In this document: piece after piece, positions 13,626-39,852 of the stretch
Layout of the letters: every line of letters starts with the position of its first letter
How positions within the stretch are numbered: the first letter of the stretch is position 1
Virus record (IMG/VR): IMGVR_UViG_3300030329_004314
Location: 1-64,000 of that record
DNA: 64,000 nt
Strand: one strand, 5' to 3'
DNA from: a virus
Made by a program: the position numbers and the translations under genes
Notes under the pieces: model-generated
The model's database searches: none
What the model was told of the DNA's origin: nothing
What the model saw: only the letters and a program-made list of their open reading frames with translations

Positions 13626-14544
13626 AATGTTTCACCGTCTTTTCTATATCTGAATGAAAATCGCCTTCATATTCAAAGCCTTCTGCTCTTAAAAATTGAG
13701 AACTTATAGAGTACCTTTGGTCATGACCAAGCCTATCTTCTACGAATTCAATATGCTCATCAGCTTCTTTGTTCATAACATCACAAATGAGCTTTATCAT
13801 TTCAATATTTTGTAGCTCAATTCCAGAGGATATATTGTATATATTGTTTTTTAGGCTATCTCTATTTTTTATTATGAATCCTATTGCTGAGGCAGTTTCA
13901 TACACAGAAGTCCATTCTCTTATTTGTTTTCCGTCTCCATAAAGAGGAACCTTCTTCCCTTCAGATATCCTAGTCACAGATTTAGGAAAAAGTTTCTCAG
14001 TATGTTGACGTGGGCCAAAATTATTAGATGGCCTAACAATAATACATTCAACACCATATGTATTCTCATAGGCTTTTATCATCATATCTGCCGAGGCTTT
14101 TGTTGCAGCATATGGATTTTTTGGGTTCAACCTTGCATATTCATGGAAAGAACCTTCTGCAATATCACCATATACTTCATCAGTAGAAACATGCAATAAT
14201 TTGACTGAATCTTCTTTGCAAACTTCTAACAATGATTTAACACCGAGAACATTAGACCAAAGAAAATCGTCGCAAGATTCAATTGATCTATCAACGTGCG
14301 TGTGAGCAGCTAGATTTATAATCCATTGAATATCGTGATTTTTACATATTGAGGATATATCCTGTTGTTGATTGATGTCTATTTTGTAGCCCGCTATCGC
14401 ATTAGGCTCAAAATCAATCGTATTAGCTGGATTAGCGGCATATGTAAACGAGTCTATGGCCACAACACCGAAGCCGTTATTTGTAAACCAATCTGCTACA
14501 TGGCTACCAATGAAACCGGCAGAACCTGTAATTGCTACATTCAT
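13609..14544 (-). CDS. rfbB: dTDP-glucose 4,6-dehydratase
   Basis: 311 residues, extended SDR fold. NAD site GSAGFIGSH (7-15); catalytic T121-D122-E123 in HVSTDEVYG; Y145-x3-K149 in NPYAATKAS; conserved RPSNNFGPRQ and the sugar-binding EKLFPK region. It converts dTDP-glucose to dTDP-4-keto-6-deoxyglucose. All catalytic residues are present, so it is probably active. The start overlaps the rfbA stop by one base (TAATG), which indicates coupled translation with the previous enzyme of the same pathway. The length is slightly below bacterial RfbB (~340-360). Confidence 0.92.
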   Translation of the reverse strand: MNVAITGSAGFIGSHVADWFTNNGFGVVAIDSFTYAANPANTIDFEPNAIAGYKIDINQQQDISSICKNHDIQWIINLAAHTHVDRSIESCDDFLWSNVLGVKSLLEVCKEDSVKLLHVSTDEVYGDIAEGSFHEYARLNPKNPYAATKASADMMIKAYENTYGVECIIVRPSNNFGPRQHTEKLFPKSVTRISEGKKVPLYGDGKQIREWTSVYETASAIGFIIKNRDSLKNNIYNISSGIELQNIEMIKLICDVMNKEADEHIEFVEDRLGHDQRYSISSQFLRAEGFEYEGDFHSDIEKTVKHYARST

Positions 14545-15410
14545 TAGACTATTCCGTAAAGATAATTACTGTATTCGTTCTTGCCTAGATTGCCCGCAAG
14601 ATGTAAGAGTTGCCTTTTGCTGATGTAGCCTAGATTATATGCTATCTCTTCCAAGCAGGCAATCTTCAAACCCTGTCTTTTTTCGATTGTCTGTATAAAG
14701 TTTGATGCCTCTAATAGAGAATCATGAGAACCAGCGTCGAACCAAGCATAACCTCGCCCAAATATCTCAAGCATCAACTTCTTGCTTTTCAAGTACACAT
14801 TATTGACATCGGTTATTTCAAGTTCGCCTCTTGAAGAAGGACTTATGGTTTTTGCAATTTTTACTACATCATTACTATACATATATAGCCCGACAGCCGC
14901 ACAATTTGATTTTGGATTTTCAGGCTTTTCCTCGATGCTTACGACACGTCTATTTCTGTTATATTCTATGACACCATATTCTCTTGCGTCATTAACATGA
15001 TAACCAAATATTACAGATTTGTTATTTTCAGTTATTTCTCTGCTAGTTCTAAGAATAGTTGGTAAAGCATCTCCATAAAATATATTATCGCCAAGTATCA
15101 AACAAACAGAGTCATCGCCAATAAATTCTTCGGCTATTATAAAGCATTCAGCTATTCCTTTTGGCGATTCTTGAATGTTATATTCAATATTTATTCCAAG
15201 ATGAGAACCGTCTTCAAAAAGAGACTTATATAAATTAATCTGGTCAGGCCTTGTAATAACCATGATATCTTTTATTCCTGCCAGCATTAATGTTGACATT
15301 GGATAATATATCATCGGCTTATTATATATAGTAAGTAGCTGCTTCGTTATTACATTAGTTGCTGGATAAAGTCTTGAGCCTGATCCACCAGAAAGCACTA
15401 TTCCCTTCAT
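14544..15410 (-). CDS. rfbA: Glucose-1-phosphate thymidylyltransferase
   Basis: 288 residues, the usual RmlA length. The nucleotide-binding loop SGGSGSRLYP lies at residues 7-16, followed by TKQLLTIYNKPMIYYP, the Mg-site LGDNIFYG (~107-114) and the EKPENPKSN motif (~160). It makes dTDP-glucose from dTTP and glucose-1-phosphate, feeding RfbB directly downstream. ATGA overlap with the upstream glycosyltransferase gene; TAATG junction with rfbB. Nothing in the active site looks damaged. Confidence 0.93.
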   Translation of the reverse strand: MKGIVLSGGSGSRLYPATNVITKQLLTIYNKPMIYYPMSTLMLAGIKDIMVITRPDQINLYKSLFEDGSHLGINIEYNIQESPKGIAECFIIAEEFIGDDSVCLILGDNIFYGDALPTILRTSREITENNKSVIFGYHVNDAREYGVIEYNRNRRVVSIEEKPENPKSNCAAVGLYMYSNDVVKIAKTISPSSRGELEITDVNNVYLKSKKLMLEIFGRGYAWFDAGSHDSLLEASNFIQTIEKRQGLKIACLEEIAYNLGYISKRQLLHLAGNLGKNEYSNYLYGIV

Positions 15411-16480
15411 GACATTGTTCTCAAAAAACCTTGTAAATTATCTATTTCTTGCTCACAAAGAGAGTAAGTATCTTCTAAAAAGTAGTACTGTTCTGGCAAA
15501 TCTATATTAAAAGGGTTTAGTGAACCCACTATTGTTTGTAAATCTATTAGCCTTGAATCATCACAATACTTTTTAGATTCATCTATCTTACTGACAAGAA
15601 GGTCAACATCATCGACTCTGGGGGTGTACATTTCTATATAGCATTTTCTAAAATGATCCCTGCATACATCAAAATCCTCGCCATCACACATAGACATCGC
15701 AAATGTGATGCCATCTGTCATTTTAGCAAAGTTCTCAGGCCATTCACCCTGTCTAATCCATGTATTTTGATCTGGAAAATGTATGTGTCTTTCTCCTCCT
15801 TCCACCCTTGGTGTACCATGCTCATGAATAATGTGACAGAAAGAATTGTCTCTCATACCGTCTCCCCAAATTATGCTTAGAAACCCTATCATTTGATCGC
15901 AGAATCTAAGGTTAGATGGGCTAAGATACCATAATATGCTCCAATTCATTTGTGCCGATTGAGTTCTTATAACATTATGCCAATTGCTGTGAAATCTTGT
16001 TGCTTGACTGTGAATTCTTTCTGCCGATGTGTCTCCTGTGATTGACTCAGGAAATTCGGTATACATAGGAGATCTTTCTTCGATTCCTCTCTCTCCAATA
16101 TGCACCCCTGTCTTTCCCCCTCTAGCCGAACAGAAATCTCTATTTTTGTTTAAGAAATCAATACAAGACTTTATTCCATTTATTGTAAAAAAATCATCAT
16201 TGTCTATAACCATACATAGGGGCGTTTCGACTGCTAGTAATGATCTAGCGACTTTTCCATAGAAATCCTGAACTGTTTTGTCATATGGAAATCTAAGATA
16301 TTCAATTTTCAATCCATCATAATAGTTTGATTCTATGCTTTTTTGTATTCTTGAGTCTATTTCTCCCCCATCAGCTATGACCAAAGGGAAAGGGCATTCT
16401 ATTTCATACAAATAAGCCAAGAGACGGCGAGAATAGAACTCTCTGCCTTTGATTGGTAATACTAGTGTTAGATCATTCAT
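15407..16480 (-). CDS. Family 2-like glycosyltransferase (TIGR00180-like)
   Basis: 357 residues. GT-A start LTLVLPIKGR (residues 4-13), then ADGGEIDSRI, and the metal motif VIDNDDFF (~95-102), a DxD variant. The remainder (FHSNWHNVIRTQS, DGMRDNSF) is typical of the TIGR00180 glycosyltransferase domain proteins from polysaccharide clusters. It likely transfers a nucleotide sugar made by this locus. The start overlaps the upstream reductase gene by 8 bp. Acceptor and donor unknown. Confidence 0.7.
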   Translation of the reverse strand: MNDLTLVLPIKGREFYSRRLLAYLYEIECPFPLVIADGGEIDSRIQKSIESNYYDGLKIEYLRFPYDKTVQDFYGKVARSLLAVETPLCMVIDNDDFFTINGIKSCIDFLNKNRDFCSARGGKTGVHIGERGIEERSPMYTEFPESITGDTSAERIHSQATRFHSNWHNVIRTQSAQMNWSILWYLSPSNLRFCDQMIGFLSIIWGDGMRDNSFCHIIHEHGTPRVEGGERHIHFPDQNTWIRQGEWPENFAKMTDGITFAMSMCDGEDFDVCRDHFRKCYIEMYTPRVDDVDLLVSKIDESKKYCDDSRLIDLQTIVGSLNPFNIDLPEQYYFLEDTYSLCEQEIDNLQGFLRTMS

Positions 16481-17183
16481 TTAATTCTCTTTTCATTTTA
16501 TCTAGATTCATAGAGGTATCTTTTGGCATTATTTCACTAATATCTTCTAGATATATTTTTCCAACATCTGGATTATCTTTTTTTGCGAATTCATATATGC
16601 TAGACGATTTTCCTCCTATGTTTATTGTTCCTTTCTTGTCTAAAAGCATAAGTATTATGTCTGCTACGTCATCATCATATATTAGACTTTTTTTAGAATC
16701 TGCTATCGCTGATTTATGAGGAAATGGCTTAGAACACATCGCTACTCTTAGGATGAGATGATTGTCGTGCATTCTTACAGCACATTCGCCTCCAAGTTTA
16801 GACCAAGCATACTTATTTATTGGTAATATCGGGTCTTCTTCTTTGTAGTCTCCAGTCAATCCGGGATAAACAAAGTCAGTTGATATATAAACAAGCTTTA
16901 TCCCCATCATTATGCAGGTCGCAGCGACATGAGATGTTCCAACAATATTAGTATGCAGGCTTTCCAAAGGGTTATTATCATGAATATTCATTGGCCGTGT
17001 CAATGCGGCGGTATGTATGATTACATCTGGCTTTACAGCACCAACCCAAAATGTAATGTCTGACATTGATTTGATATTCATCTCCCCTTTTGGAGGAGCG
17101 ACTATGTCATGATTACGACTACGGTTTGACTGAATTATTTTTTTTGCCAGCTTTCCTTCGCCGCCGGTAATTAATATCTTCAT
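16473..17183 (-). CDS. RmlD-like sugar nucleotide reductase (SDR)
   Basis: 236 residues from the ATG; a TTG two codons upstream is possible but less likely, and the ATG has GGAG 10 bp before it. NAD(P) site ITGGEGKLAKK (residues 4-14), RmlD-like HTAALTRP (~59-66), STDFVYPG (~98-105) and YAWSKLGGE (catalytic Y-x3-K, ~121-129). This order matches dTDP-4-dehydrorhamnose reductases and related SDRs. It is shorter than RmlD (~290) in the C-terminal substrate domain, so the substrate may differ. It overlaps the upstream epimerase gene by 65 bp, an unusually long overlap. Confidence 0.7.
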   Translation of the reverse strand: MKILITGGEGKLAKKIIQSNRSRNHDIVAPPKGEMNIKSMSDITFWVGAVKPDVIIHTAALTRPMNIHDNNPLESLHTNIVGTSHVAATCIMMGIKLVYISTDFVYPGLTGDYKEEDPILPINKYAWSKLGGECAVRMHDNHLILRVAMCSKPFPHKSAIADSKKSLIYDDDVADIILMLLDKKGTINIGGKSSSIYEFAKKDNPDVGKIYLEDISEIMPKDTSMNLDKMKRELNE

Positions 17184-18081
17184 ACCCAAGTAACTCCAGA
17201 GTTTCAGCTATTGCATTTTCAACTTTTCCGCAAGGTCGCCATTCAGTTAACTCTAATAGCTTTTTATTACTGACCTTATAACTATGTTGATTTAATAATG
17301 GGGTATCAACAAATTCTACATCAAGATGACTGACATACTTCTTTATTTCTTCTACAATTTCTGAAAGCTTGTGATTGTCTGTCAAGACATTGTATGTCTG
17401 ATTATATACAAGCTCTTCGTCTAGTATATGTCTCATTAATGAACATAGATCTGACAGGCACAAATATGGCCTATAATGATGATAATTTTGTTTCCAAACA
17501 CTAAGAGGCTTGTTAAAAGCTGCTTGATAACAGAATTTATTTATTGCAGTATGGAATCTCATTCCATTGCTAATTCCGTATATAGTACCAAGCCTTAAAA
17601 TTATATATTTAGTTTCTTGTAGGTTTTCATTAATCCAGTCTTCTACCCATACCTTCGTCTCAGCGTAAGGGCTTTGTGCATTTACATATTTTTTATCTTC
17701 ATTTACTAATTTATCTGAAGTTCCGTAGACACTGGTCGAAGATGGAAATATTACTGTCTTTACTTTTGAATGTTCTACCTTAGTTAAAAATTTACAAGTC
17801 TGTTCTACATTAACTTTCCAAACCCATTTTGGATCTCTAAAGCTAGATGCAGCATCAGTTATAGCTGCCAAATGAATAACAGCATCAAATTTATCTAAAA
17901 AAGATTTGTCTAAATCAATAAATGAATGGTCAACAAACCTAATATTTTTTTCTAGATTGAATAATGAGCAGTACCTCTGAGTACTTAAATTGTCACATAC
18001 AGTTAGATCGTAATCAGATAAAAACCTAATCAAGCCCGATCCTATATGTCCAAGACCGCCTGTTATTAAGATTCTTTCCAT
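17119..18081 (-). CDS. NAD-dependent sugar epimerase/dehydratase
   Basis: 320 residues, extended SDR. NAD motif ITGGLGHIGSGL (5-16), HLAAITDAASS (~70-80), the Ser-containing PSSTSVYG (~112-119) and catalytic Y-x3-K in SPYAETK (~136-142). The C-terminal half (YRPYLCLSDLCSLMRHIL) forms the usual sugar-binding lobe. It belongs with UDP-glucose-4-epimerase-like enzymes, but the substrate cannot be read. A basic tail (RRRRKAGKK) is encoded in the stretch that overlaps the downstream reductase gene. The stop of the 3,4-ketoisomerase reading frame lies inside its start region (16-bp overlap). Confidence 0.78.
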   Translation of the reverse strand: MERILITGGLGHIGSGLIRFLSDYDLTVCDNLSTQRYCSLFNLEKNIRFVDHSFIDLDKSFLDKFDAVIHLAAITDAASSFRDPKWVWKVNVEQTCKFLTKVEHSKVKTVIFPSSTSVYGTSDKLVNEDKKYVNAQSPYAETKVWVEDWINENLQETKYIILRLGTIYGISNGMRFHTAINKFCYQAAFNKPLSVWKQNYHHYRPYLCLSDLCSLMRHILDEELVYNQTYNVLTDNHKLSEIVEEIKKYVSHLDVEFVDTPLLNQHSYKVSNKKLLELTEWRPCGKVENAIAETLELLGYEDINYRRRRKAGKKNNSVKP

Positions 18082-18464
18082 TCTAAAAATTCCTCATAAT
18101 TTCTTATGTAATCTTCTTCCATATAAAGATGGCTACACAAAACTAAAAGTACAGAGTTATTTGTAGTGTAAACTTGCTCTGCCCAAACCCCAGCGGGTAT
18201 GATAATTCCTTTACTTGCAGAGTTTATATGTATCGTTTGCTGTTCTTTTCCGTCTTTTAGTATTACAGTAATTCCACCATTTATACATACTAAGAGTTGT
18301 TCAGTCATTACATGTGCATGACCACCACGCTTTTCCCCTGCACTAACTCCATAAACATAGAATACTCTTTGGAAGTCAAAAGGTGCTTCTTTCAAGTTTT
18401 CTATTACTGTTAGGTTTCCTCTTTCGTCAGAGAATGTAGGCAAGTCAATTCTTTGAATATTCAT
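18066..18464 (-). CDS. fdtA: dTDP-4-oxo-6-deoxyglucose 3,4-ketoisomerase (FdtA/QdtA-like)
   Basis: 132 residues from the ATG that forms an ATGA overlap with the upstream stop; an in-frame ATG 18 bp earlier is less likely. Single cupin domain with FSDERGNLTVIE (11-22), the catalytic HAH (H49, H51 in KRGGHAHVMTEQ) and PAGVWAEQVY. This signature marks the FdtA/QdtA/WxcM-type ketoisomerases that convert dTDP-4-keto-6-deoxyglucose to the 3-keto form. Together with RfbA, RfbB and the DegT aminotransferase it forms a plausible path to a 3-amino-3,6-dideoxyhexose. Confidence 0.85.
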   Translation of the reverse strand: MNIQRIDLPTFSDERGNLTVIENLKEAPFDFQRVFYVYGVSAGEKRGGHAHVMTEQLLVCINGGITVILKDGKEQQTIHINSASKGIIIPAGVWAEQVYTTNNSVLLVLCSHLYMEEDYIRNYEEFLEWKES

Positions 18465-18910
18465 TTGTTTTCTGTTTCCCATTCTTCACCAAAGTCACCA
18501 ACCTTGGCTCTGAATTCATCTGAAGGATCATATTTTTCTGATAGATAGTATAGCATTATTGAGTTTGGCTCCAACGCTTGGTATCCATGATAAACTCCCG
18601 GTGGTATTTTTATTACTCTTTGTTCTCTTTCAGTAATATATAAGAACTCTGTTTTCTCTCCAGTTGACAAGCCAACTTTAAAAGAGCCTTTTATGCATAC
18701 CCAAAAGTCAGTCTGTTTTTCATGCTTGTGCCAAGCAACTATATGTTTAGTTGAATTAACATAAGAAATATTGATTTGCCCTTTCATAGAATCCTTCCCT
18801 GTAAATGAATCGTCAAATACATCTAAGTATCTTTCAGCACGATCATCTATATGGAAAGGAATCTTTTTGGCGTAATAGTTTTTTTTAGGAGATTTATCTG
18901 ACTTTTTCAA
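18461..18910 (-). CDS. RmlC/FdtA-like cupin sugar epimerase or isomerase
   Basis: 149 residues. The start is TTG, overlapping the upstream neuA-like stop as TTGA, with AGGGG 9 bp upstream; no in-frame ATG occurs before residue 42. A cupin barrel is suggested by AWHKHEKQTDFWVCIKGSFKVGL (split by strands) and KIPPGVYHGYQAL. The HxHxxQ pattern recalls dTDP-4-dehydrorhamnose 3,5-epimerase relatives, though the canonical RmlC length (~180) and His-Asp dyad are not fully clear. It probably acts on a nucleotide-activated keto-sugar. Substrate uncertain. Confidence 0.65.
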   Translation of the reverse strand: MKKSDKSPKKNYYAKKIPFHIDDRAERYLDVFDDSFTGKDSMKGQINISYVNSTKHIVAWHKHEKQTDFWVCIKGSFKVGLSTGEKTEFLYITEREQRVIKIPPGVYHGYQALEPNSIMLYYLSEKYDPSDEFRAKVGDFGEEWETENK

Positions 18911-19584
18911 AACAATATCCCCTGACTTATCATTTCTTCTGCTTTTTCTAAATCTTCAGCGGTATCAATGTCTACATACATTGATCTTGGTATTTCGACA
19001 CCTTTGACATTTCCGACAAAAAAGTTTTTGTGTTCTCTAATATGAGACCAGTGAGACATATAGAACGAACCATTTGGCTTGTAGTATTTTTGGATGAATT
19101 TGCTGTTTGTCAATCCAGAAGTTAGGTTGTCAAAAACTGGAAAAACGCTGTCATTCCTCTTAATCATAGCGAGTTGTATTGGTTCAGAATATTCACTAAT
19201 ACTAACTACAGAGTCACATTCTCGGAGAATCTCAATCGCTTTCGATATATCTTCTGTCTTCCTAAAAGGACATGTTGGCAAAAAGTAAGAAAAGACATCG
19301 TGTCTTTCCACATCTTGCATCATAGCAATTAACGCAGAAAGAACCGTTGCTTTCTCTGTAGCATACTCAGCAGGCCTATCATATATTTCTACGTCGTAAT
19401 CCTTCGCTACATCTTTTATTTCTTGTGAGTCAGTAGATACAATAATAGTATCAAATTCTCCAGAGTCTATTACTGTCTCTATTGTATGAACAATGAGTGG
19501 TCTGCCTCCTAAAAGACGAATGTTCTTATCTTTTAGTCTAGTCGATCCACCTCTCGCCGGTATAACAGCTAGTCTTGTGATCAT
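18907..19584 (-). CDS. neuA: CMP-sugar synthetase (CMP-N-acylneuraminate cytidylyltransferase-like)
   Basis: 225 residues, the standard length. CTP-binding loop IPARGGSTRLKDKNI (residues 8-22), GRPLIVHTIE, ST-D in IIVSTDSQE (~48-56), RP-E in DRPAEYAT and the C-terminal metal Asp pair in MYVDIDTAEDL (~203-213). It activates a nonulosonic or ulosonic acid with CTP to give a CMP-sugar. NeuA, PseF and KdsB-type specificity cannot be separated by eye, but the motif form is closest to NeuA/PseF. AAGGAG lies 6 bp before the ATG. It is two genes from kdsA and four from the GT29-like transferase, which would use its product. Confidence 0.82.
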   Translation of the reverse strand: MITRLAVIPARGGSTRLKDKNIRLLGGRPLIVHTIETVIDSGEFDTIIVSTDSQEIKDVAKDYDVEIYDRPAEYATEKATVLSALIAMMQDVERHDVFSYFLPTCPFRKTEDISKAIEILRECDSVVSISEYSEPIQLAMIKRNDSVFPVFDNLTSGLTNSKFIQKYYKPNGSFYMSHWSHIREHKNFFVGNVKGVEIPRSMYVDIDTAEDLEKAEEMISQGILF

Positions 19585-20303
19585 CCTTTTCTCCTTAGAT
19601 AGCCATCTGGATGACAGGAGAACAATAGTTTGTTGCGAATCCTTTCATCTCTCTCAAAATTTTCATTAGAATCCAGAAACTCATTCAAAGCGGTTCGTGG
19701 GTTATTTCCTTTACCCCATTCTTTATCTCTGTGAAGTTTTGGCATGTCTTCAATAACAGTGTCTGCACAAATCAAGTAGCATCCTTCACTTACCAGTTCA
19801 CTATATATATTAAGTTCTTTTAGTACATGTTCATGTGTATGGTGAGAGTCGAGTATTACCATGCATTTACCATCTACCTTGTTTTTTATTTGATCTAATG
19901 TTTCTTTGTGTAAAGAAGAGCCTTCTAGAAATATCAACTCTACTCCAATATTTTTTTTAGTTACTCTATCTAACATGTCTTCTGGCATGTAGATGTCGAT
20001 ACCTATTAATGATTTGCCACCATACATAGCCATTAATGTCGAGTAAAATAGTGATGATCCTCCCCAAGCTACTCCTACCTCAATAATATGGTCTGGCTTA
20101 GTATCAAGAATTATTTCTTGTATTGCAAACATATCTTGCGGTAACTGAAGGACTGGTTCTCCTTGCCAATTAGTTTGGTTAATCCAGTGATAACTGTCAG
20201 CATGACACAAAGTGCTTATTGCCTTATTCTTCAAAGATTTGTCTTCCCACATATCTTTTGCTTCAGACAGTCGTAGTTCCTCAAATTCTTCCCTAGTGTA
20301 CAC
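19581..20303 (-). CDS. CmcI-like SAM-dependent methyltransferase
   Basis: 240 residues with a GTG start, supported by AGGAG ~9 bp upstream. SAM-binding motif IIEVGVAWGGSSLFYSTL (~73-90), acidic LIGIDIYM and LDSHHTHEHVLKEL (~150-163) are features of the cephalosporin hydroxylase (CmcI)/rhamnosyl O-methyltransferase family, whose LDSxHxxxHV motif holds a Mg ion. Members in polysaccharide clusters O-methylate sugars. It overlaps kdsA by 11 bp and is coupled to neuA by an ATGA junction. Confidence 0.75.
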   Translation of the reverse strand: MYTREEFEELRLSEAKDMWEDKSLKNKAISTLCHADSYHWINQTNWQGEPVLQLPQDMFAIQEIILDTKPDHIIEVGVAWGGSSLFYSTLMAMYGGKSLIGIDIYMPEDMLDRVTKKNIGVELIFLEGSSLHKETLDQIKNKVDGKCMVILDSHHTHEHVLKELNIYSELVSEGCYLICADTVIEDMPKLHRDKEWGKGNNPRTALNEFLDSNENFERDERIRNKLLFSCHPDGYLRRKG

Positions 20304-21060
20304 AGGCTTTGATCTCCTCTTGTTTTGTAATCAAATAATCGACTCTAGAAAGATCTATTTGGCAGTCGGCATCTGAAGTAGACGAAGGAGGATGAGGATG
20401 AACCTCGGCAAATACAGCGTCATAGCCAAACACGCCAGATGATAGAAGATATTTTTCTGCTAATGACCTATCTCCTTGAGTACCATACACATGCCTGCTT
20501 CTTTGTGTAGAGTGAGTACAGTCAATTACAACTTTGTCATAACACTTTTTCAATTCTTCTATAATAGTAAAATCGACAATCAACTTGTCGTAACCATAGT
20601 TAGAACCCCTGTCGCATACCCATGCCTCTGTACTAGGGTCTGTATCTTTAATTTTATCTAAAGACTTAATCAGGTTGTTAGGCCCGATCCACTGACCCTT
20701 CTTTATGTTTACTTTGTCAAATGACTGAGCAGAAGCAACTATTAGGTCTGTTTGACGACATAGAAAAGCAGGGATTTGCACCAAGTCAATCACACCAGCA
20801 AGCTTTTCTACCTGCCACACTTCATGAATATCTGTGGTTAATTTTATAGTAGGGTGCTTTTCTTTTACCTCACGAAAAAGTTCAATCCCTTCTTCCAAAC
20901 CAACACCACGTCCTCCGTATAAAGAAGTACGATTAGCTTTATCAAAAGAGGCTTTATAATACCAGTCACGATCACCCATTATTTCTACTAAGTGATCAGC
21001 CGTATTTAGGTACATCTCCCTGTTGTCAATAGTACAAGGCCCTAGTATCCAAGTGGTCAT
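20293..21060 (-). CDS. kdsA: 3-deoxy-D-manno-octulosonate 8-phosphate (Kdo8P) synthase
   Basis: 255 residues, slightly below the usual ~275-280. ILGPCTID (metal-type Cys at residue 8), YKASFDKANRTS (~35-46), TDIHEV (~76-81), QIPAFLCRQTDL (~95-106) and the CTHSTQ and late ASTSDAD-like (PSSTSDADC) motifs match KdsA, which condenses PEP with arabinose-5-phosphate. The Cys in GPC suggests the metal-dependent class. Kdo is a core LPS sugar, so a phage copy implies synthesis of an ulosonic acid in the infected cell. ATGA overlap with the upstream aldolase gene. Confidence 0.88.
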   Translation of the reverse strand: MTTWILGPCTIDNREMYLNTADHLVEIMGDRDWYYKASFDKANRTSLYGGRGVGLEEGIELFREVKEKHPTIKLTTDIHEVWQVEKLAGVIDLVQIPAFLCRQTDLIVASAQSFDKVNIKKGQWIGPNNLIKSLDKIKDTDPSTEAWVCDRGSNYGYDKLIVDFTIIEELKKCYDKVVIDCTHSTQRSRHVYGTQGDRSLAEKYLLSSGVFGYDAVFAEVHPHPPSSTSDADCQIDLSRVDYLITKQEEIKACVH

Positions 21061-21944
21061 TTAACAATCTCCAAAATTTTAGCAATTCTCTTTTTCTCTG
21101 TAGGTGTGACAGAAGGAAAGGGATGCCTATTGTAATCACAAAATCCTAGCTGACGAAGAGCCTCCCTCATCGCCTTGTGCCATCCAATTGACATAAACAC
21201 ATCGAATAACTGTGTCTCTTTATGGATGTAGAACATACTTTTTGTCTTAAAGTATTCTATTTCTTGCTTTGGAAACATACTTCCAATGCCAGAGACGAAG
21301 GATTGTACACCGGTGGGTTGTAGCGCATTGAAGCGACGAATACTCCCGCCAGCAACTATAACACAGAAATTCTTCTTGTCAATATCTTTGCATACATTAA
21401 ATGCCAATCCGAGGTCAGAAGTTTCTTCTTTCATGCCAAATATGTTTTTATGAGAAGAAATCTTATTAATTAATTCTGCTGTATAATCATAAGACCCTCC
21501 AGTTCCCTTACGCATGAACATACCATGAAATATTACGGGTAACTTACTTCTATCTGCTATCTTATGAAAGTAGCTAACAATGGTCTTATCGTCATAATAT
21601 CTATCAGGATAAAGAGCCATTAAAAAAGTTTTATTACTTTTCTTCATCTTTTCGTTATAAAAGTCAACATCATCAAGTACAGACCGTAAATCTTTTCCCT
21701 GAAGACCAATTATCTTTGTATTTACGAAAGAGTCATAGAGAGTAAAGTTGAGAGAAAATATTTCTTCCTTACTTAGAAGATTATATTGAGAAGTCCCTGC
21801 TGTAGTCATAACGCATTTTGCGCCATTTGATTGCAAGTATGATATGTACTTTTTTGTCTTTGCTAGATCTAGGTCTCCGTTTCTTTTATAAGAAGGAGGC
21901 AACGCAAAAGATGGTGTGTCGCATAACATTTTTGACTTATTCAT
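21057..21944 (-). CDS. DapA/NanA-family Schiff-base aldolase
   Basis: 295 residues, TIM-barrel DHDPS/N-acetylneuraminate lyase family. Seen: TTAGTSQYNLLSKEE (~47-61), corresponding to the GTTGE...S loop, and the Schiff-base Lys in FGMKEETSD (~165-173). The conserved Tyr of the family is probably in ALYPDRYY. Members use pyruvate as a donor or product, so this enzyme could form or cleave a keto-acid sugar. Between kdsA and a GT29-like transferase, a role in ulosonic-acid metabolism is likely. It should not be called dihydrodipicolinate synthase on this evidence. Confidence 0.78.
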   Translation of the reverse strand: MNKSKMLCDTPSFALPPSYKRNGDLDLAKTKKYISYLQSNGAKCVMTTAGTSQYNLLSKEEIFSLNFTLYDSFVNTKIIGLQGKDLRSVLDDVDFYNEKMKKSNKTFLMALYPDRYYDDKTIVSYFHKIADRSKLPVIFHGMFMRKGTGGSYDYTAELINKISSHKNIFGMKEETSDLGLAFNVCKDIDKKNFCVIVAGGSIRRFNALQPTGVQSFVSGIGSMFPKQEIEYFKTKSMFYIHKETQLFDVFMSIGWHKAMREALRQLGFCDYNRHPFPSVTPTEKKRIAKILEIVK

Positions 21945-22578
21945 AAGATATAATTAATCCTTTGTCTATCAATTCTTTTATTTTAGATCTTTCATATTTG
22001 TAGTGATGGGTCATATGAGTCCCTTTGTCTTCCCAGTAATGCTGCGCGAACTCGTCATTCAACCCAAAACCGAATATATGAGGTATGACACCAACACGAA
22101 TACATAGGTGTATTATCGCAAAACCTATGCTTGGTCTTCTATGGCCCGTGTTAACTTGACATATGTGTTGTATTGAAGAGTAGTCTCCTAGATAAGGATC
22201 GCAAGACGAATGTATGTTCTCATGTCTTGACCTCCATTCATCACCCCTGCCGTTATGTTCATTAGTCTGTGGGCCAATCATTAATATTTTCATATTTCTA
22301 AGATCTTTGACGAAGTTTGCTGGTTGACCTTTGTTCGTCCAGTTGCCGACTCTTGGGTGCGGCACATTTGAAAATACATGTTGATTAGCAACACGAATAG
22401 TGGTTCTAGAACCTACATGGGTTTCATAGCTTTCTGTTGGCGCTCTGTTAAATCTAACTATGTCGTCGAATTCGTCAATGAATTCACCGTATGTTCTATT
22501 AAGTATAGATGGACTAGAAGCAATTATTGCTATGTTGTTACTTACATCTAGGTCTGGAGTTACATATTGAAGTATCAT
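21937..22578 (-). CDS. GT29-type sialyltransferase-like glycosyltransferase
   Basis: 213 residues. The ATG at 22578 gives an ATGA overlap with the upstream stop and has a perfect AGGAGG 9 bp before it; the ATG at 22587 abuts that site and is disfavoured. All four sialylmotifs are recognisable: L (NIAIIASSPSILN ... FDDIVRFNRAP ... HVGSRTTIR, ~14-62), S (RRPSIGFAIIHL ... HIFGFG, ~148-173), motif III (HYWE, ~181) and VS (H-x4-E in HHYKYE). The disulfide cysteines of animal enzymes are absent. GT29 enzymes transfer sialic acid, and plant members probably Kdo-like sugars, from CMP donors. The adjacent CMP-sugar synthetase and kdsA fit that chemistry. Confidence 0.82.
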   Translation of the reverse strand: MILQYVTPDLDVSNNIAIIASSPSILNRTYGEFIDEFDDIVRFNRAPTESYETHVGSRTTIRVANQHVFSNVPHPRVGNWTNKGQPANFVKDLRNMKILMIGPQTNEHNGRGDEWRSRHENIHSSCDPYLGDYSSIQHICQVNTGHRRPSIGFAIIHLCIRVGVIPHIFGFGLNDEFAQHYWEDKGTHMTHHYKYERSKIKELIDKGLIISYE

Positions 22579-23258
22579 CCACAACATCCTCCTGAACTTA
22601 CATTTTCAATAGCACCTAAGTCTTTTAAGAGAAGAACGTCTACTGAGTCTTCTTCTCCGTTTGGATTTGTGCCAAATGTATCCCATTTGAATATCGTATA
22701 CCCATTTTTCTTTATTGTTTGCAAAAACTCTGACTTGTTATATGAAAATTTATATGTCTTTATTCCGTATGGTGTTTGATAAACTTCGCTATTACTTTTT
22801 TCTTTTGTTATTGGTATTCTCTGCAAAATTATCATATTTGCGCATATGCTAAGTATGTGTTCTAGGCATTCATTTCCATTTGGTAGTATGTCTATCAGCC
22901 CATTAACAACAATAAGGTCATTATCAAAAATATCATCCCACTTGATATCTTGATAAGATTTGTTATAAAAACTACCAATCTCTCCAAATGATTCACTTGC
23001 TAGGTCAACTGCCTCTTTTGAATAGTCATACCCTATGTATTGAACATCCTCAAACTCTTGCGCTACTATCATTGAGTAGGCACCACACCCACAACCAATG
23101 TCAATAACTCTAGAAATTCTCTTCCTTACCATCGTTGCCTGATCAACAAAATGGTGCCAATGTGCAGGCCATTCATTTTGAAACTGGCTTATGTTAAGTC
23201 TTAATTGCTGTACAAATACATCTCTGTTTTTCCATGAGTCAATGTGTTCGGAATTCAT
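22575..23258 (-). CDS. Class I SAM-dependent methyltransferase
   Basis: 227 residues. SAM motif I is VIDIGCGCGAYSMIVA (~51-66), motif II YIGYDYSKEAVDLA (~74-87), and LIVVNGLIDILPNG is the post-motif acidic strand. The N-terminal ~45 residues are helical. It probably methylates a sugar or nucleotide sugar, given its position; the acceptor cannot be told. The C-terminus ends in a Cys pair (SSGGCCG). It overlaps the upstream family 2 transferase by 20 bp. Confidence 0.75.
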   Translation of the reverse strand: MNSEHIDSWKNRDVFVQQLRLNISQFQNEWPAHWHHFVDQATMVRKRISRVIDIGCGCGAYSMIVAQEFEDVQYIGYDYSKEAVDLASESFGEIGSFYNKSYQDIKWDDIFDNDLIVVNGLIDILPNGNECLEHILSICANMIILQRIPITKEKSNSEVYQTPYGIKTYKFSYNKSEFLQTIKKNGYTIFKWDTFGTNPNGEEDSVDVLLLKDLGAIENVSSGGCCG

Positions 23259-24132
23259 TTAGCTGATCCTCAAACCTTTTTTTCAACTTGTCCATATTCT
23301 GTAGAATTATCTCTGGGTGTTCTTCTTCAAAAGGCTTTGTTCTACAAGAGCCTCTTACACTAGGTTTGAACTCATGAACACCGTCATACTCTTCTTCTAT
23401 TCGACTTCTGGTTGATTGACTTCCAGTAACCCAAGGAAGGTATACATTTTCAAAATAATCATCAATACAATTTTGTTTACTTACCGCTGCTTTATAGTAG
23501 CTTACTTTTTGTTTTACTTGTTGAGGGAAGACGTAGCTGTAGTGATACATTCTGACACCAAGTTTTTCATCCAGCGTATTATGGTCTAGGTGTCTTTTTG
23601 GCAATCTTTCGTGTATAGGTATCGTGTGAGCTATAGTAGGAGGTCTATGTGTTGCCCAATAAGAACCCGGATATACCTTTCGGATTCTCATAAATTCTGC
23701 TCCTTCTTCAAATCCTCCTAATACATTATCAAATCCCCCATAGAAACTTCTGCTTCTGAAACCTACTGAAGTGATTTTGAACTCTTCCAATACCTCCATG
23801 ATCGTTTCAATATCTCTTGACTTGAATACTTCATCACAATCTAAGTTCCATATGTAATCATTGTCTTCATCCAAAAGTTTCATATATGTATTGCACTGAT
23901 GATCCTTTTCCTGATATTGGCTACTTACGATCTGTATTTTATTTTCAGGGTCTGGAATAGAATTCAATACTTCTATGGTTCCATCTGTAGACTTGGATAG
24001 TCCTTGTTGTTGCCAGTATGTTACTGGGCCTTCAGCAATCAAAATTTGATTTGCATATGGGTAAACAGATTTTATGCACTCTTCAAGTACATAGTTTCCA
24101 TTAAGAACAATCATTCCAAAGGCTATCTTCAT
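23239..24132 (-). CDS. Family 2 glycosyltransferase
   Basis: 297 residues. GT-A start IAFGMIVLNGNYVLEECIKSV (~3-23, split by a loop), ILIAEGP, KSTDGTIEVL (~46-55), and the DxD-like metal motif WNLDCDEVF (~93-101). The C-terminal half has many Tyr and basic residues and a HYSYVFPQQV stretch common in GT2 proteins with the DCDE motif. Likely adds a hexose to a glycan. It shares an ATGA overlap with the upstream family 8-like transferase. Confidence 0.78.
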   Translation of the reverse strand: MKIAFGMIVLNGNYVLEECIKSVYPYANQILIAEGPVTYWQQQGLSKSTDGTIEVLNSIPDPENKIQIVSSQYQEKDHQCNTYMKLLDEDNDYIWNLDCDEVFKSRDIETIMEVLEEFKITSVGFRSRSFYGGFDNVLGGFEEGAEFMRIRKVYPGSYWATHRPPTIAHTIPIHERLPKRHLDHNTLDEKLGVRMYHYSYVFPQQVKQKVSYYKAAVSKQNCIDDYFENVYLPWVTGSQSTRSRIEEEYDGVHEFKPSVRGSCRTKPFEEEHPEIILQNMDKLKKRFEDQLNEFRTH

Positions 24133-25037
24133 AGTTTATATGTACTCTTTATCATGTATGTGCAGTCATAGTAATTGTCGTAAACATCTTTTATTCCTAA
24201 GTTAGGCAATATATTTCCCCATTCTCCATGCCTGTCTACTCTATATAAACCCTCATCATAGTTAGGATTGAAATGGGAGAAGTGATTGAAAACTAAATCT
24301 TGAGTCACTTTCCCCTGCTTCATTACAAATTGAGAGTCCCACATTATTTTCTTATCTTGTATTTCAGCATGAGGAAAATTCCAAGGCGCACCATGCCCTA
24401 TGTCTTCGTCTATAATTTTTACATTGTTCTGACCAAATATCTCCCCAAACAACTCTAGGTACTTTTGATCTCCGCATGTGCCATGTGTGACAGAAAACCT
24501 ATTATTAGTATCAACAACCACATCCTTCCAAAAACTTGAGCAGGGCAGACCTACCTCATCGTTACGGAAGTACACAATACCTACATTGTAATAACCAGTA
24601 CGGCTATTAGACTCAAGCGATTGGTGCTTATGGGTAATTAATCCAATAGAGTAATTATCTACACAGTCAAATATGACTCGTGGGTCTTTATAAAATAGAA
24701 TATCGGAGTCCACATAGAGACACTCACTACATTTTTTCAATACAAAGTTTGTAAAGAAGGCCGACAAAGCCCAATGAAATTCACAATGACCATCAGGATG
24801 TGTTCCATCGTCCCTAGCGTTATTCTTCTTTAGTAGTTCAAAGTCGTCACTAGCTAAATCATCCAACCTATACGGAATAATCTCTCTGAAGTTTATATCG
24901 TTTAACTTGTGATAGGCAGTATCATCTGTACAAAGATAATGTAATTCAAATGGTTCTGATGCGTACTGCCTTATCGAATGATACATCGTAAGACCATATG
25001 TAAGATATTTACTGTCTGAAAGAGTTGCGAATATCAT
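24129..25037 (-). CDS. Family 8-like (GT-A) glycosyltransferase
   Basis: 302 residues. MIFATLSDSKYLTYGLTMYHS opening is split into the nucleotide-binding strand and helix of GT8-like enzymes; the metal motif is YVDSDILFYKDP (~108-119), followed by YYNVGIVYFRND (~148-159) and the late HFSHFNP His motif (~265). These are the usual GT8 landmarks. It would transfer a hexose (often Gal or Glc) with retention. A 32-bp gap separates it from the upstream gene. Confidence 0.75.
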   Translation of the reverse strand: MIFATLSDSKYLTYGLTMYHSIRQYASEPFELHYLCTDDTAYHKLNDINFREIIPYRLDDLASDDFELLKKNNARDDGTHPDGHCEFHWALSAFFTNFVLKKCSECLYVDSDILFYKDPRVIFDCVDNYSIGLITHKHQSLESNSRTGYYNVGIVYFRNDEVGLPCSSFWKDVVVDTNNRFSVTHGTCGDQKYLELFGEIFGQNNVKIIDEDIGHGAPWNFPHAEIQDKKIMWDSQFVMKQGKVTQDLVFNHFSHFNPNYDEGLYRVDRHGEWGNILPNLGIKDVYDNYYDCTYMIKSTYKL

Positions 25038-35653: not shown

Positions 35654-37240
35654 CTAGATTTGCGTAACCTCTTTTACAACAAGGCCGTTTCTTTTCTTGT
35701 CTCTCTCGCCTTGAATTAAAACCGTATTTCCTTCTTGCAGTAGGCCTTGATATTCAGACCATTCTTCAGGAAAGCATACTACACTGTCAACAACGCATGA
35801 ACCATCAGAAATAGACATAAATGCCATCTTAGATCCGGGATTCTTGCCGTTTTTTGTGGTTATCTCATTTGATCTAACAATTTCTACGCCCATAACAATG
35901 TAACCAGACTTGCCATCCAAAAATTCTTTGCAGGTAGTATTAGACTCTACAGATTTTTCGCAAGCATCAACCTTGTTGCAAGTAATAGATATTCCGAGAT
36001 GCTTCTTTTCATTCCAAGCAATCTGTCCTGCGCTATCATCAAGACTATGTGGAGGATTGTCTAAAACTTTAATCAAGTCATTCAGAACATCTACACGCTT
36101 GTAATTGCTACATCCCCCACCCTGCTTCTTTGGAAAGGCACATGCACCAAGAGCATCTTTCAGAGTGTCCCATTTTTCTCCCTGCATCCATTCTCTTTCC
36201 TTGTCCGTCAACTTACCCCAAATCTCAATCTCATAAAGCATTCTGTTTCTTGACACACCAAAACAATCCATAGCACCAGAGCAAATCATTGCCTGATTTG
36301 CCATAGAGTTTATTTTTTTTGAGTGATGAATTAAGAATGTTATCCAATCCAAATTTTCTAAGTTATCTACAGATGAGAAATTTTCTATTATCTTTTCAAC
36401 GGCTGATTCGCCTACGCCTTTTATGTCAGATAAACCAAAATATATATGGTTGTCTTTTATGTAAAATGTTTTCTTCTGATGTTTGATGTTAGGTGTTCTA
36501 ACTTCTATTTCGCTTATTTTTGCATCAGATACAAGTTCATATATTTCTTCATGACTATTTTGCTTCCAAGCAGAACCTATAAGGTATGAACAAAAGAATT
36601 CGACAGGAAAATGTGCTTTGCAGTATGCAGACCAATAGGCATTTTTTGCATAACTAACAGCATGAGACTTGTTGAAAGAATATCTTTGAGATTCTCTAAT
36701 CCAGCCGAATATTTCCTTTGCTTCTTCTTTAGATACTAATCCTTTGCTATCGCATCCCTTTAGAAATTGCCCTTCTACTTTGGACATAACATCGGCTTTT
36801 TTCTTTCCAATCGCTTTCCTTAAAACATCTGCCTCTTGAAGGCTGAACCCTGCTAAAGATTGTGCTATCTGCATGGCCTGTTCTTGATATACCAAAACGC
36901 CATAGGTTTTATTCAATATTGGTTCTAACGACTCATGAAAATACTCTATGCTCTCAAGACCAGCTTTACGATCAACATAACGCTGAGTCATGCTTTTAGG
37001 TGGATTTCCACTTACTGCCCTGAGACATCCCGGTCTAATAAGGCTTACGAGTGCCGCTAAATCTTCAATGCTGTTTGGCTTTAACCTTTTTGACCATTCT
37101 TTTCCAAGCTGGCTTTCTAGCTGAAAGACACCTTTTGTTGCGCCTTCATGAAAAAGCTTCCAAGTAGCAGGGCATTCCAAATTTATCTTATAGAAGTCAA
37201 TAGTGCCTTCTAAAACACAACCGCAATCAAAATTAATCAT
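35654..37240 (-). CDS. dnaE: DNA polymerase III alpha subunit, C-terminal fragment
   Basis: 528 residues from the ATG overlapping the exonuclease stop by 8 bp, with GGAAGG upstream; ATGs at 37282-37285 would add 14-15 residues. It begins just before the fingers: GVFQLESQLG (~35), DLAALVSLIRPG (~58), YGVLVYQEQAMQIAQ (~105), ADVLRKAIGKKK (~128), SFNKSHAVSYA (~187), HhH motif IKGVGESAVEKI (~277) and a C-terminal OB domain (~425-525). The palm with the catalytic Asp residues is on the other fragment, so it must assemble with that product. No beta-clamp motif was identified with certainty. Confidence 0.9.
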   Translation of the reverse strand: MINFDCGCVLEGTIDFYKINLECPATWKLFHEGATKGVFQLESQLGKEWSKRLKPNSIEDLAALVSLIRPGCLRAVSGNPPKSMTQRYVDRKAGLESIEYFHESLEPILNKTYGVLVYQEQAMQIAQSLAGFSLQEADVLRKAIGKKKADVMSKVEGQFLKGCDSKGLVSKEEAKEIFGWIRESQRYSFNKSHAVSYAKNAYWSAYCKAHFPVEFFCSYLIGSAWKQNSHEEIYELVSDAKISEIEVRTPNIKHQKKTFYIKDNHIYFGLSDIKGVGESAVEKIIENFSSVDNLENLDWITFLIHHSKKINSMANQAMICSGAMDCFGVSRNRMLYEIEIWGKLTDKEREWMQGEKWDTLKDALGACAFPKKQGGGCSNYKRVDVLNDLIKVLDNPPHSLDDSAGQIAWNEKKHLGISITCNKVDACEKSVESNTTCKEFLDGKSGYIVMGVEIVRSNEITTKNGKNPGSKMAFMSISDGSCVVDSVVCFPEEWSEYQGLLQEGNTVLIQGERDKKRNGLVVKEVTQI

Positions 37241-37910
37241 CTGAAAAAGAGCCTTCCATTTTAAGACGAGCTTCTTTTCCATCACTACCAGTCAAGTTTC
37301 TCTGCATTTGAAGAAGCCTGATGATTATTCTTGCTGTATTCATTACGTCTTGTAATGCGTCATGTGCATTCTCAATATCTGCTTTTGCAAATCCCAGCCA
37401 CTCACAAACTGAAGTTAACTTCAATGATTTAAGATTCGGATTGTTTTCAGTCCAAAACCACATATGGTGCATAAGATCAAATTTGTGTATAGGATTAAAT
37501 AATTTTTGTTGTCCTCTGTTATCATTATACGGGCCGTATTTTTTGCAGTATCTATCTACAATTATCATGTCGTATCCAAGAATATTATATCCAGCAGGAA
37601 TAGGTGCCATATAAGTACCTATATTTCCTTTAGATTTGTTATGCTTGTTTACCCAGTCTACAAATTGGCCCCATACAATTTTTATATCTGGCGCTTGCTC
37701 AAGCTGTTCTAATGTAAAGCCCGTAACCTCCAATGCTCCTTGTTCTACCCTATCTAAATTTTCTGGTCTCGCCATAGATTCAAATGTGTCTATTATTTTC
37801 AGATCCCACCTATTGATAATGCAAGCTCCGATTTGTGTTATTTCACATTCGTTAGGGTTTGCGCCTCCCGTTTCAAAGTCAAAGACGCAAATTTGGTTAT
37901 AGGTTCCCAT
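37233..37910 (-). CDS. dnaQ: DnaQ-like 3'-5' exonuclease (DEDDh)
   Basis: 225 residues. Exo I is VFDFETGGANP (9-19: D10, E12), Exo II is AGYNILGYDMIIVD (~113-126, with the Asp in GYD), and Exo III is ENAHDALQDVMNTARII (~185-201, H and D for the DEDDh class). It would proofread for the split polymerase or process DNA ends. The gene lies between the two polymerase fragments, overlapping the first by 14 bp and the second by 8 bp, so the three are co-translated. The C-terminal ~20 residues are charged and may bind the polymerase. Confidence 0.88.
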   Translation of the reverse strand: MGTYNQICVFDFETGGANPNECEITQIGACIINRWDLKIIDTFESMARPENLDRVEQGALEVTGFTLEQLEQAPDIKIVWGQFVDWVNKHNKSKGNIGTYMAPIPAGYNILGYDMIIVDRYCKKYGPYNDNRGQQKLFNPIHKFDLMHHMWFWTENNPNLKSLKLTSVCEWLGFAKADIENAHDALQDVMNTARIIIRLLQMQRNLTGSDGKEARLKMEGSFSDD

Positions 37911-39852
37911 TATATTTCTCCAATATCATATTTTGAACGCCATGAACCTTATCTAGTAAAGCAATACCAAGTATGTCAAACTTTACATGACCCATAGCCT
38001 CTAAGTCGTTCATTTCCATTCCGGCAATATTTTGTCCTGTTCTCTTATCGTATAAGATGGGACATATCTCATTTAATGGCTCTTGTGCTATTACAATTCC
38101 GGCTGCATGTTTAGACTGAGATCTATTTGTGCCTTCAAGCCTAATTGCTTGCTCGAATCTTTTTGCCATACTTCCTTGCAATTTTCCGTTTGCATCTTTA
38201 TAACACCAATTCTCAAGTTCTTTAGAATTATTTTCTAATGCCCATCTTATGATACTAGCCTCTCCATCTTCTCTCATCTCTTCTAGCTGATCTGATATTT
38301 CTGCTTCATCTGGAATCCATTTGGTTATTCGATTCATTTCTTCAAAACCACATGCTGAGTGAACACGAAGAACATCTTTAAGAACACTTCTGCCTTGCAT
38401 TCTTGTGTAAGTTAATATTTGAGCTACTCTGTCAGAGCCAAATCTATCTTTGATGTATTGTATTGTGTCGTCTCTTTTTTGAATTTCAAAATCCATGTCA
38501 ACATCAGGCAAACTAACACGGTCTTTTGTATTTCTTCCGGCGTTATAGAACCTCTCAAAATAGAGATCGTACTCTATTGGATCTACATCAGTAACTCCTA
38601 GTAGATAAAGAACAAGACTACCAGCAGCAGATCCTCTTCCTGCACCAACTATTTCTCCTCTGTCTCTTGCTGCATTAATGATGTCATGAACAATAAGAAA
38701 ATAGTCATTTAAATCAGCACCTGTAAGAACTTCTAATTCTTTCTTAAACCTATCGCCATATTGTTTTTTTCTTTTCTTGTACTGTTCTTCAGTGATATAT
38801 CCGCATCGCTTTATAGAATCTTCGATCTGTTCTTCTCTTTTCTTCCATCCATCACGACACAGCTTTGTAAGATAATCTTCCGATGTCATACCATCGGGAC
38901 AAGGGAATTTGGGCAACCTTGGTTTTCCAGTGATATCATATTCTTCACACATGTCAGCTATGACGCACGTGTTGTTTATCTCCTCGTCAGTGTGTATCTC
39001 TTTCATTTCTTCAAGGCTAGGTATGTGGTAGTTAGATGACTTAAAAAATATTGATAATGCAAAGTCCTTGTCTCCCCTCATCTTATTATCTACATCTTGA
39101 AGCGTTGTCTCTAACTTATTGCATAAAAGAACACGTTGGTCATATGCGTCTTCACGTCTAGCATAATGTGCGTCTGGAGTTGCCACAGGAGGTATTCCAG
39201 TTTTTTTGCTAACGTACCTCAACGCCTCTGCTACTACTTTAGCTGCTGGAAAAGAATTTTGATCAATAAGCTGAATCTCAATAAAAAAGTTTTCTTCTCC
39301 AAAAATGTTTTGATATTTGGTTGCAAGACTGCAAGACAACTCATACCAGTTGTCTCTGACTAAAGACTTTGCTTCTTCGTATGTTGAGCAATTGTAAGCT
39401 TGATATGGGTCAGAGAAGATGATGTTGGCTAAGTCACTTCCTGCGTGTCCACTAAAGGCTATAAGATTGCCATCAGCAAAATTAGACAATCTTTCTAAAT
39501 CAAGTCTGGGTTTATAATGAAAATTTTCTGGCTTATTGGACTCAGAAGTTGCCTGTAGTAATCTTTTCCATCCTATTTCATTTTTAGCCAAAACAACTAG
39601 ATGGGTAAGTTTTTCTCTAGGTGGCTTTTCAGATATGTCTTTAGATAGATAAAATTCGCAACCAAGTATGGCTTTCTTTCCTTTTGACTTCATTGCATTG
39701 ATGAAAGATACGGCACCTCCAACATTTCCATGATCTGTTAGTGCAGAACCTTCAAGACCAAGTTCTTCACACCTTTTTGCAATGTCTTTTGGCTTACTAA
39801 GTCCATCTAAAAGCGAATAATGACTATGTACATGAAGAGGAAAAAACCTCAT
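37897..39852 (-). CDS. dnaE: DNA polymerase III alpha subunit, N-terminal fragment (PHP + palm)
   Basis: 651 residues. PHP domain: HVHSHYSLLDG (7-17), ALTDHGNVGG (37-46), GCEFYL, SGHAGSD and TPDAHYAR, with most metal-binding His/Asp/Glu kept. Then the palm: GRGSAAGSLVLYLLGVTDVD (~404), catalytic pair in LPDVDMDFE (~449) and third Asp in HVKFDILGIAL (~624). The ORF stops ~20 residues later, before the GVFQLES fingers motif that opens the C-terminal fragment. Both fragments together make one near-complete DnaE. ATGA overlap with the small gene upstream. Confidence 0.92.
   Translation of the reverse strand: MRFFPLHVHSHYSLLDGLSKPKDIAKRCEELGLEGSALTDHGNVGGAVSFINAMKSKGKKAILGCEFYLSKDISEKPPREKLTHLVVLAKNEIGWKRLLQATSESNKPENFHYKPRLDLERLSNFADGNLIAFSGHAGSDLANIIFSDPYQAYNCSTYEEAKSLVRDNWYELSCSLATKYQNIFGEENFFIEIQLIDQNSFPAAKVVAEALRYVSKKTGIPPVATPDAHYARREDAYDQRVLLCNKLETTLQDVDNKMRGDKDFALSIFFKSSNYHIPSLEEMKEIHTDEEINNTCVIADMCEEYDITGKPRLPKFPCPDGMTSEDYLTKLCRDGWKKREEQIEDSIKRCGYITEEQYKKRKKQYGDRFKKELEVLTGADLNDYFLIVHDIINAARDRGEIVGAGRGSAAGSLVLYLLGVTDVDPIEYDLYFERFYNAGRNTKDRVSLPDVDMDFEIQKRDDTIQYIKDRFGSDRVAQILTYTRMQGRSVLKDVLRVHSACGFEEMNRITKWIPDEAEISDQLEEMREDGEASIIRWALENNSKELENWCYKDANGKLQGSMAKRFEQAIRLEGTNRSQSKHAAGIVIAQEPLNEICPILYDKRTGQNIAGMEMNDLEAMGHVKFDILGIALLDKVHGVQNMILEKYNGNL

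Follow-up and report, generated by a model that had tools for sequence, protein, structure and literature searches.

The GT29 gene and its setting

The window, by which we mean the whole stretch of 64,000 nucleotides that was analysed, carries on its minus strand a cluster of sugar genes that includes a small glycosyltransferase gene of family GT29 (Table 1). The genes surrounding it lie on the same strand, with ends that overlap or almost touch: ATGA at 22578-22575 joins the stop of the upstream methyltransferase gene to the GT29 start, and the GT29 stop has an 8-base overlap with the next gene, which encodes a DHDPS/NAL-like protein. A second in-frame ATG, at 22587, directly abuts the AGGAGG and is for this reason unlikely to be the start; the protein used in our analyses was read from it and carries 3 extra N-terminal residues. 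The first-pass annotation had concluded from the AGGAGG and the ATGA overlap that this is a functional phage gene, and we concur: the open frame, the intact motifs, these start signals and the identical GT29 protein carried by a second contig rule out a remnant or decayed gene. Its further point that donor supply and transfer share one operon is borne out by the layout: three genes separate GT29 from the CMP-sugar synthetase, and the whole row shares one strand and has overlapping ends.

Table 1. Features of the sugar gene cluster in the window
Feature	Position	Strand	Basis or remark
GT8-like glycosyltransferase	24129..25037	-	Pfam GT8 E 0.004, below cut-off; syntenic
GT2-like glycosyltransferase	23239..24132	-	Pfam Glycos_transf_2 23.9 bits (cut-off 23.3); syntenic, independent anchor
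SAM methyltransferase	22575..23258	-	Pfam Methyltransf_31 E 4.3e-10; syntenic GT29 neighbour
AGGAGG ribosome-binding site	22588..22593	-	9 nt 5' of the GT29 ATG; read directly from the sequence
GT29 glycosyltransferase (sialylmotifs L, S, III, VS)	21937..22578	-	213 aa plus stop
DHDPS/NAL-family pyruvate lyase-like protein	21057..21944	-	Pfam DHDPS 38 bits (cut-off 22.1); PDB DHDPS E 3e-8
KdsA-like 3-deoxy-8-phosphooctulonate synthase, metal-dependent type	20293..21060	-	NCBI equivalogs; match to Aquifex Kdo8P synthase
CmcI/rhamnosyl O-methyltransferase-type methyltransferase	19581..20303	-	Pfam RMNT_CmcI E 2.5e-61
CMP-sugar synthetase, nearer NeuA/PseF than KdsB	18907..19584	-	CTP_transf_3 E 5.7e-27
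Downstream sugar genes: RmlA, 357-aa protein, two SDR dehydratase/reductase-like proteins, FdtA, cupin	14544..18910	-	Same cluster

The KdsA-like protein scored 247 bits against NF003543 (cut-off 242) and 238 against TIGR01362, whose stricter cut-off is 314; it matched the Aquifex Kdo8P synthase (E 1.9e-53), and its metal residues C9, H183, E219 and D230, together with the KANR and FLCRQ motifs, were invariant among the eight sequences compared. In the DHDPS-like protein K172 (the Schiff-base Lys), E173 and H140 were invariant in 10 relatives, and we take His140, which we placed with the help of an alignment to PDB DHDPS, to occupy the family's usual Tyr position. This branch of DHDPS-like proteins has subtypes, one of which pairs with KdsA and another (20-23% identical) with NeuB. 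The CMP-sugar synthetase fell below both equivalog cut-offs (PseF, 140 bits against 206; kdsB, 39 against 155), and its PDB matches were NeuA (E 1.7e-23) and KdsB (1.4e-12). Further downstream, RmlA scored 415 bits, over its cut-off, and FdtA matched with E 4.3e-47. Among the cluster proteins searched, we recognised no KdsC phosphatase and no arabinose-5-phosphate isomerase. Searches of the 86-kb contig and its 143-kb twin gave no NeuB; both may lack part of their genome, and the donor could come from the host.

Elsewhere on the contig, a minus-strand DnaE-type DNA polymerase is split into two ORFs (37897-39852 and 35654-37285), which match neighbouring portions of a single PHROG, and an RNase_T (DnaQ-like) exonuclease gene (37233-37910) lies between them in the region 35654-39852. 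Since the intervening ORF is this exonuclease, an intein or homing endonuclease is ruled out. A 1469-aa ORF (109-4518), among the few genes on the plus strand, had no PHROG or Pfam match, and a search of the contig for terminase PF03237 gave no match.

Family membership and fold

The protein belongs to GT29 because: (i), its sole match in a Pfam search was Glyco_transf_29 (PF00777), at 76.4 bits and E 3.1e-21, above the cut-off of 23 that all 11 GT29-bearing contigs checked also passed, (ii), alone it matched ST6Gal1 (E 7e-8) and ST3Gal1 (E 1e-7) in the PDB, and a profile of 16 viral sequences matched ST3Gal1 over nearly its full length (E 1.1e-28), an alignment that takes in motifs L, S, III and VS in that order and, (iii) a predicted structure has the family's fold (see below). 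The four motifs that the first-pass annotation had read within the 213 residues are indeed present, at 33-59 (L core), 147-172 (S), 180-183 (HYWE) and 191-196 (HHYKYE), and the profile search it had proposed gave the significant Pfam match just cited; motifs III and VS recur in all 18 clade members examined. Given the Pfam score and the ST3Gal1 profile match, this ordered occurrence is well beyond chance. Neither PHROGs nor NCBIfam holds a family for the phage protein.

An AlphaFold model built on the 16-sequence viral alignment (pLDDT 88.3, pTM 0.89) is confident and has the modified GT-A fold of sialyltransferases. In a Foldseek search of the PDB the top 30 matches were all GT29 structures, led by ST8Sia3, ST3Gal1, ST6GalNAc2 and ST6Gal1 (probability 1.00, TM up to 0.69 of the query), followed by CstII of GT42 and then a sharp drop. 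The RMSDs of 4 to 10 A indicate that much peripheral structure differs from that of the sialyltransferases. The structural comparison suggested by the first-pass annotation supports the sialyltransferase fold, and the arrangement of the four motifs around one cleft, which it had also expected, would follow from that predicted fold. Membership of GT42 was considered and is ruled out, the CstII match (E 7e-5 to 2e-4) being weaker than that of every GT29 structure.

The protein has cysteines at 126, 140 and 159, none of which aligns with an animal motif-L or motif-S cysteine in the profile alignment to ST3Gal1. The animal disulfide pair is thus absent, as had been noticed from the sequence; bacterial GT29 proteins also lack it (PMC5811610), so the pair is not a defining feature of the family. 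The highest 19-residue hydropathy falls within motif S and not at the N-terminus, so no membrane anchor is visible.

Distribution in viruses and cells

The view that GT29 is rare in viruses proved overstated. While a search of 50,697 phage records gave a single match, an uncultured phage of 484 kb (LR756508.1), two IMG/VR scans yielded more than 100 loci, or about 80 distinct viral sequences once duplicates and cellular sequences had been dropped. Viral GT29 annotations moreover already exist for an uncultured Caudovirales phage, mimivirus, coccolithovirus, herpesviruses and a poxvirus, so a phage GT29 as such is not new; our literature search for phage GT29 found no dedicated study among the papers available to it. 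The match in LR756508.1 (L003:5138-9959) consists of four divergent GT29 paralogues with a NeuB relative within 5 kb.

Among cellular genomes GT29 is sparse, being present in 3 of 297 genomes in the order of Pelagibacteraceae AG-911-K15 and in 9 of 398 in its phylum, and passing the cut-off in 4 of the 289 genomes from the phylum to which an Opitutales genome belongs. The 16-sequence viral alignment was too heterogeneous to serve as the seed for scanning genomes; a narrower alignment, used in its place, found only two cellular relatives.

Linkage to, and exchange of, the sugar synthase

In the clade around the window, the GT8, GT2, methyltransferase and GT29 genes often keep the same order and the cassette that follows GT29 varies. 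KdsA or NeuB lies within 6 kb of GT29 in 16 of the 19 sequences of this clade; of the other three, one comes from a contig that breaks off 4 kb downstream, one has its KdsA about 9 kb off and one belongs to a cellular genome. When 16 related contigs were searched over their whole length, seven had KdsA only (including L213, a contig without GT29), nine had NeuB only (including the near duplicates L006 and L007) and none had both, so that each of the 15 that bear GT29 has one synthase type (KdsA in 6, NeuB in 9). On the GT29 tree, at least five switches between KdsA and NeuB are needed for the 23 labelled sequences. The pair L012 and L006, grouped on this tree with support 98/96, illustrates such an exchange most clearly: the two are 97% identical in GT2, 89% in GT29 and 86% in the CMP-synthetase, and L012 has a DHDPS-like gene with KdsA where L006 has NeuB with a distant DHDPS-like protein. 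Other GT29 branches likewise pair with KdsA, and at their KdsA loci GT29 is about 0.3-1.6 kb away.

The conserved GT2 gene served as an anchor that avoids picking loci by GT29. The 42 distinct loci that extend 5 kb to either side of it comprised 12 with GT29 and a synthase, 24 with neither, 4 with GT29 only and 2 with a synthase only (Fisher p 1.1e-5, a statistic that ignores shared ancestry). KdsA itself is common in viral contigs (more than 500 matches), often with no GT29 nearby, which indicates that it has other uses. The exchange of a donor cassette beside a retained phage GT29 appears to be new.

Two further observations concern these contigs. In L006 and L016, NeuB is fused to isomerase-like domains (L006:10621-12474 and L016:10603-12105; an AP_endonuc_2 TIM barrel and a cupin/lyxose-isomerase-like domain), a hint from domain content that the fused phage enzymes may take unusual aldose substrates. 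L213 and L216 have the cluster of GT2, KdsA and CMP-synthetase with no GT29 on the contig, which may reflect another transferase or a loss.

Proposed function and donor

We propose, with a probability of about 0.6, that the phage GT29 is an inverting transferase of CMP-ulosonic acids whose donor in this phage is probably of the Kdo type and which decorates a glycan of the host surface. The donor, acceptor, cell-surface target and benefit are what we infer beyond the family, fold, intact motifs, operon, linkage and synthase exchange described above. The KdsA-like enzyme would condense phosphoenolpyruvate with a phosphorylated aldose, a phosphatase that we assume the host supplies would strip the phosphate from the product, and the NeuA/PseF-like enzyme would activate the resulting sugar with CTP. 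The small soluble GT29 would then move this acidic 3-deoxy-2-keto sugar from its CMP form, with inversion, onto a glycan built by the phage cluster. By inference from the gene content the final sugar would be a Kdo-type acid, in the window phage probably Kdo or a Kdo-like octulosonic acid. The product would most likely modify a host surface polysaccharide during infection, so altering phage receptors; in an earlier report, phage LPS genes were proposed to change the host surface and thereby to block other phages (PMC5332604).

The first-pass label of sialyltransferase probably names the wrong donor, because a DHDPS-type protein and a KdsA-type synthase are encoded in the operon, and neither the contig nor its twin yielded a NeuB. 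A Kdo-type donor is favoured by the tight overlap of the KdsA-like, DHDPS-like and CMP-synthetase genes and by the invariant metal and substrate motifs of KdsA, and a Kdo-using GT29 has a precedent, since loss of plant MGP2/RCKT1 removes Kdo from RG-II (PMC11288761). The proposal as a whole draws further on the nearness of KdsA or NeuB to GT29 in its clade, on the single synthase type of each GT29-bearing contig, on the pair L012 and L006 and on the GT2-anchored association. Several points count against the proposal: the CMP-synthetase is nearer NeuA/PseF than KdsB, KdsA is below the TIGR01362 cut-off, neither KdsC nor arabinose-5-phosphate isomerase was recognised in the cluster proteins searched, L213 and L216 have KdsA without GT29, and four of the GT2-anchored loci have GT29 with no synthase nearby.

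It is also possible, at rather less than even odds, that one GT29 and one CMP-synthetase tolerate any ulosonic acid delivered by an exchangeable synthase cassette. The five or more switches on the GT29 tree and the closeness of L012 and L006 in both enzymes, despite their different synthases, speak for such tolerance; however, the 10% difference between these two GT29s could include specificity residues, and the isomerase-like domain carried by the L006 NeuB means that the two sugars may differ less than the synthase names imply. We offer only tentatively, as rather doubtful, the wider idea that phages keep a fixed GT29, tolerant of its ulosonic-acid donor, while the KdsA or NeuB cassette is exchanged, and that GT29 is by origin a general family of CMP-ulosonic-acid transferases, of which the animal sialyltransferases would be one branch.

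We regard as unlikely a sialyltransferase-type enzyme in the strict sense, with a nine-carbon CMP-nonulosonic acid (Neu, Leg, Pse or Kdn type) as its donor, provided either by the host or by phage genes that lie beyond the contig. The NeuA/PseF-like character of the CMP-synthetase would fit it, as would the NeuB genes that adjoin GT29 in close relatives and at SAR11 loci, but no NeuB was found on either the 86-kb contig or its twin and the two synthases were mutually exclusive in the contigs tested. We consider it quite improbable that the glycan decorates the phage particle and not the host surface, as RmlA, FdtA, many glycosyltransferases and methyltransferases are the content of a surface polysaccharide cluster and a SAR11 genome with GT29 and NeuB shares parts of this content. 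GALT29A, the third Arabidopsis GT29, is described as a galactosyltransferase, and a similar use of the fold for an unrelated donor, the CMP-sugar genes then serving one of the many other transferases of the cluster, seems very improbable given that GT29 and a synthase co-occur on the GT2-anchored loci and lie close together at the KdsA loci of other GT29 branches.

If the Kdo-type reading is true, GT29 enzymes would transfer Kdo in phages as well as in plants, and phages would change the acidic sugar on a surface glycan through replacement of one or two genes; under donor tolerance, a single cassette change would alter the terminal acidic sugar that the host surface displays. The phage operons offer a concrete donor hypothesis for bacterial GT29, whose function a 2018 survey could not predict (PMC5811610), and they supply both a ready enzyme set (synthase, CMP-synthetase and transferase) and natural swap pairs for testing. 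Bacterial expression may also prove simpler for small, cysteine-poor GT29 proteins than for the animal enzymes.

Comparison with known systems

Other phages have the sugar supply: S-SCSM2R encodes KdsA and KdsB, that is, a Kdo-type synthase and a CMP-sugar synthetase as in the window phage, with no GT29 found in the 31-kb stretch of it, and a marine virus with NeuA and KdsA has the same two enzyme types, GT29 going unmentioned in the passage that describes it (PMC5332604). CstII of Campylobacter, a weaker fold neighbour, belongs to a separate CAZy family, GT42. The locus of Pelagibacteraceae AG-911-K15 (L077) has a GT29 32% identical to that of the phage and relatives of the DHDPS-like, CMP-synthetase, CmcI-type methyltransferase and SDR genes nearby; it differs in having NeuB in place of KdsA and in being part of a cellular genome. 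The bacterial GT29 proteins of Alteromonas, Idiomarina and Loktanella, by their description, keep the motifs and lack the cysteines and the transmembrane domain, as the phage protein does; the survey that describes them names no viruses (PMC5811610). The animal enzymes ST3Gal1, ST6Gal1, ST8Sia3 and ST6GalNAc2 share with it the four ordered sialylmotifs and the GT29 fold, but the phage enzyme has 213 aa, no visible membrane anchor, no motif L/S cysteine pair and a contig without NeuB. Plant MGP2/RCKT1, a GT29 member like GALT29A and the proposed CMP-Kdo transferase of RG-II (PMC11288761), differs in being a Golgi enzyme whose donor was deduced from mutant glycan analysis, that of the phage enzyme being deduced from genomic context; by its description, however, it resembles the phage enzyme as we read it, a GT29 tied to Kdo rather than to sialic acid.
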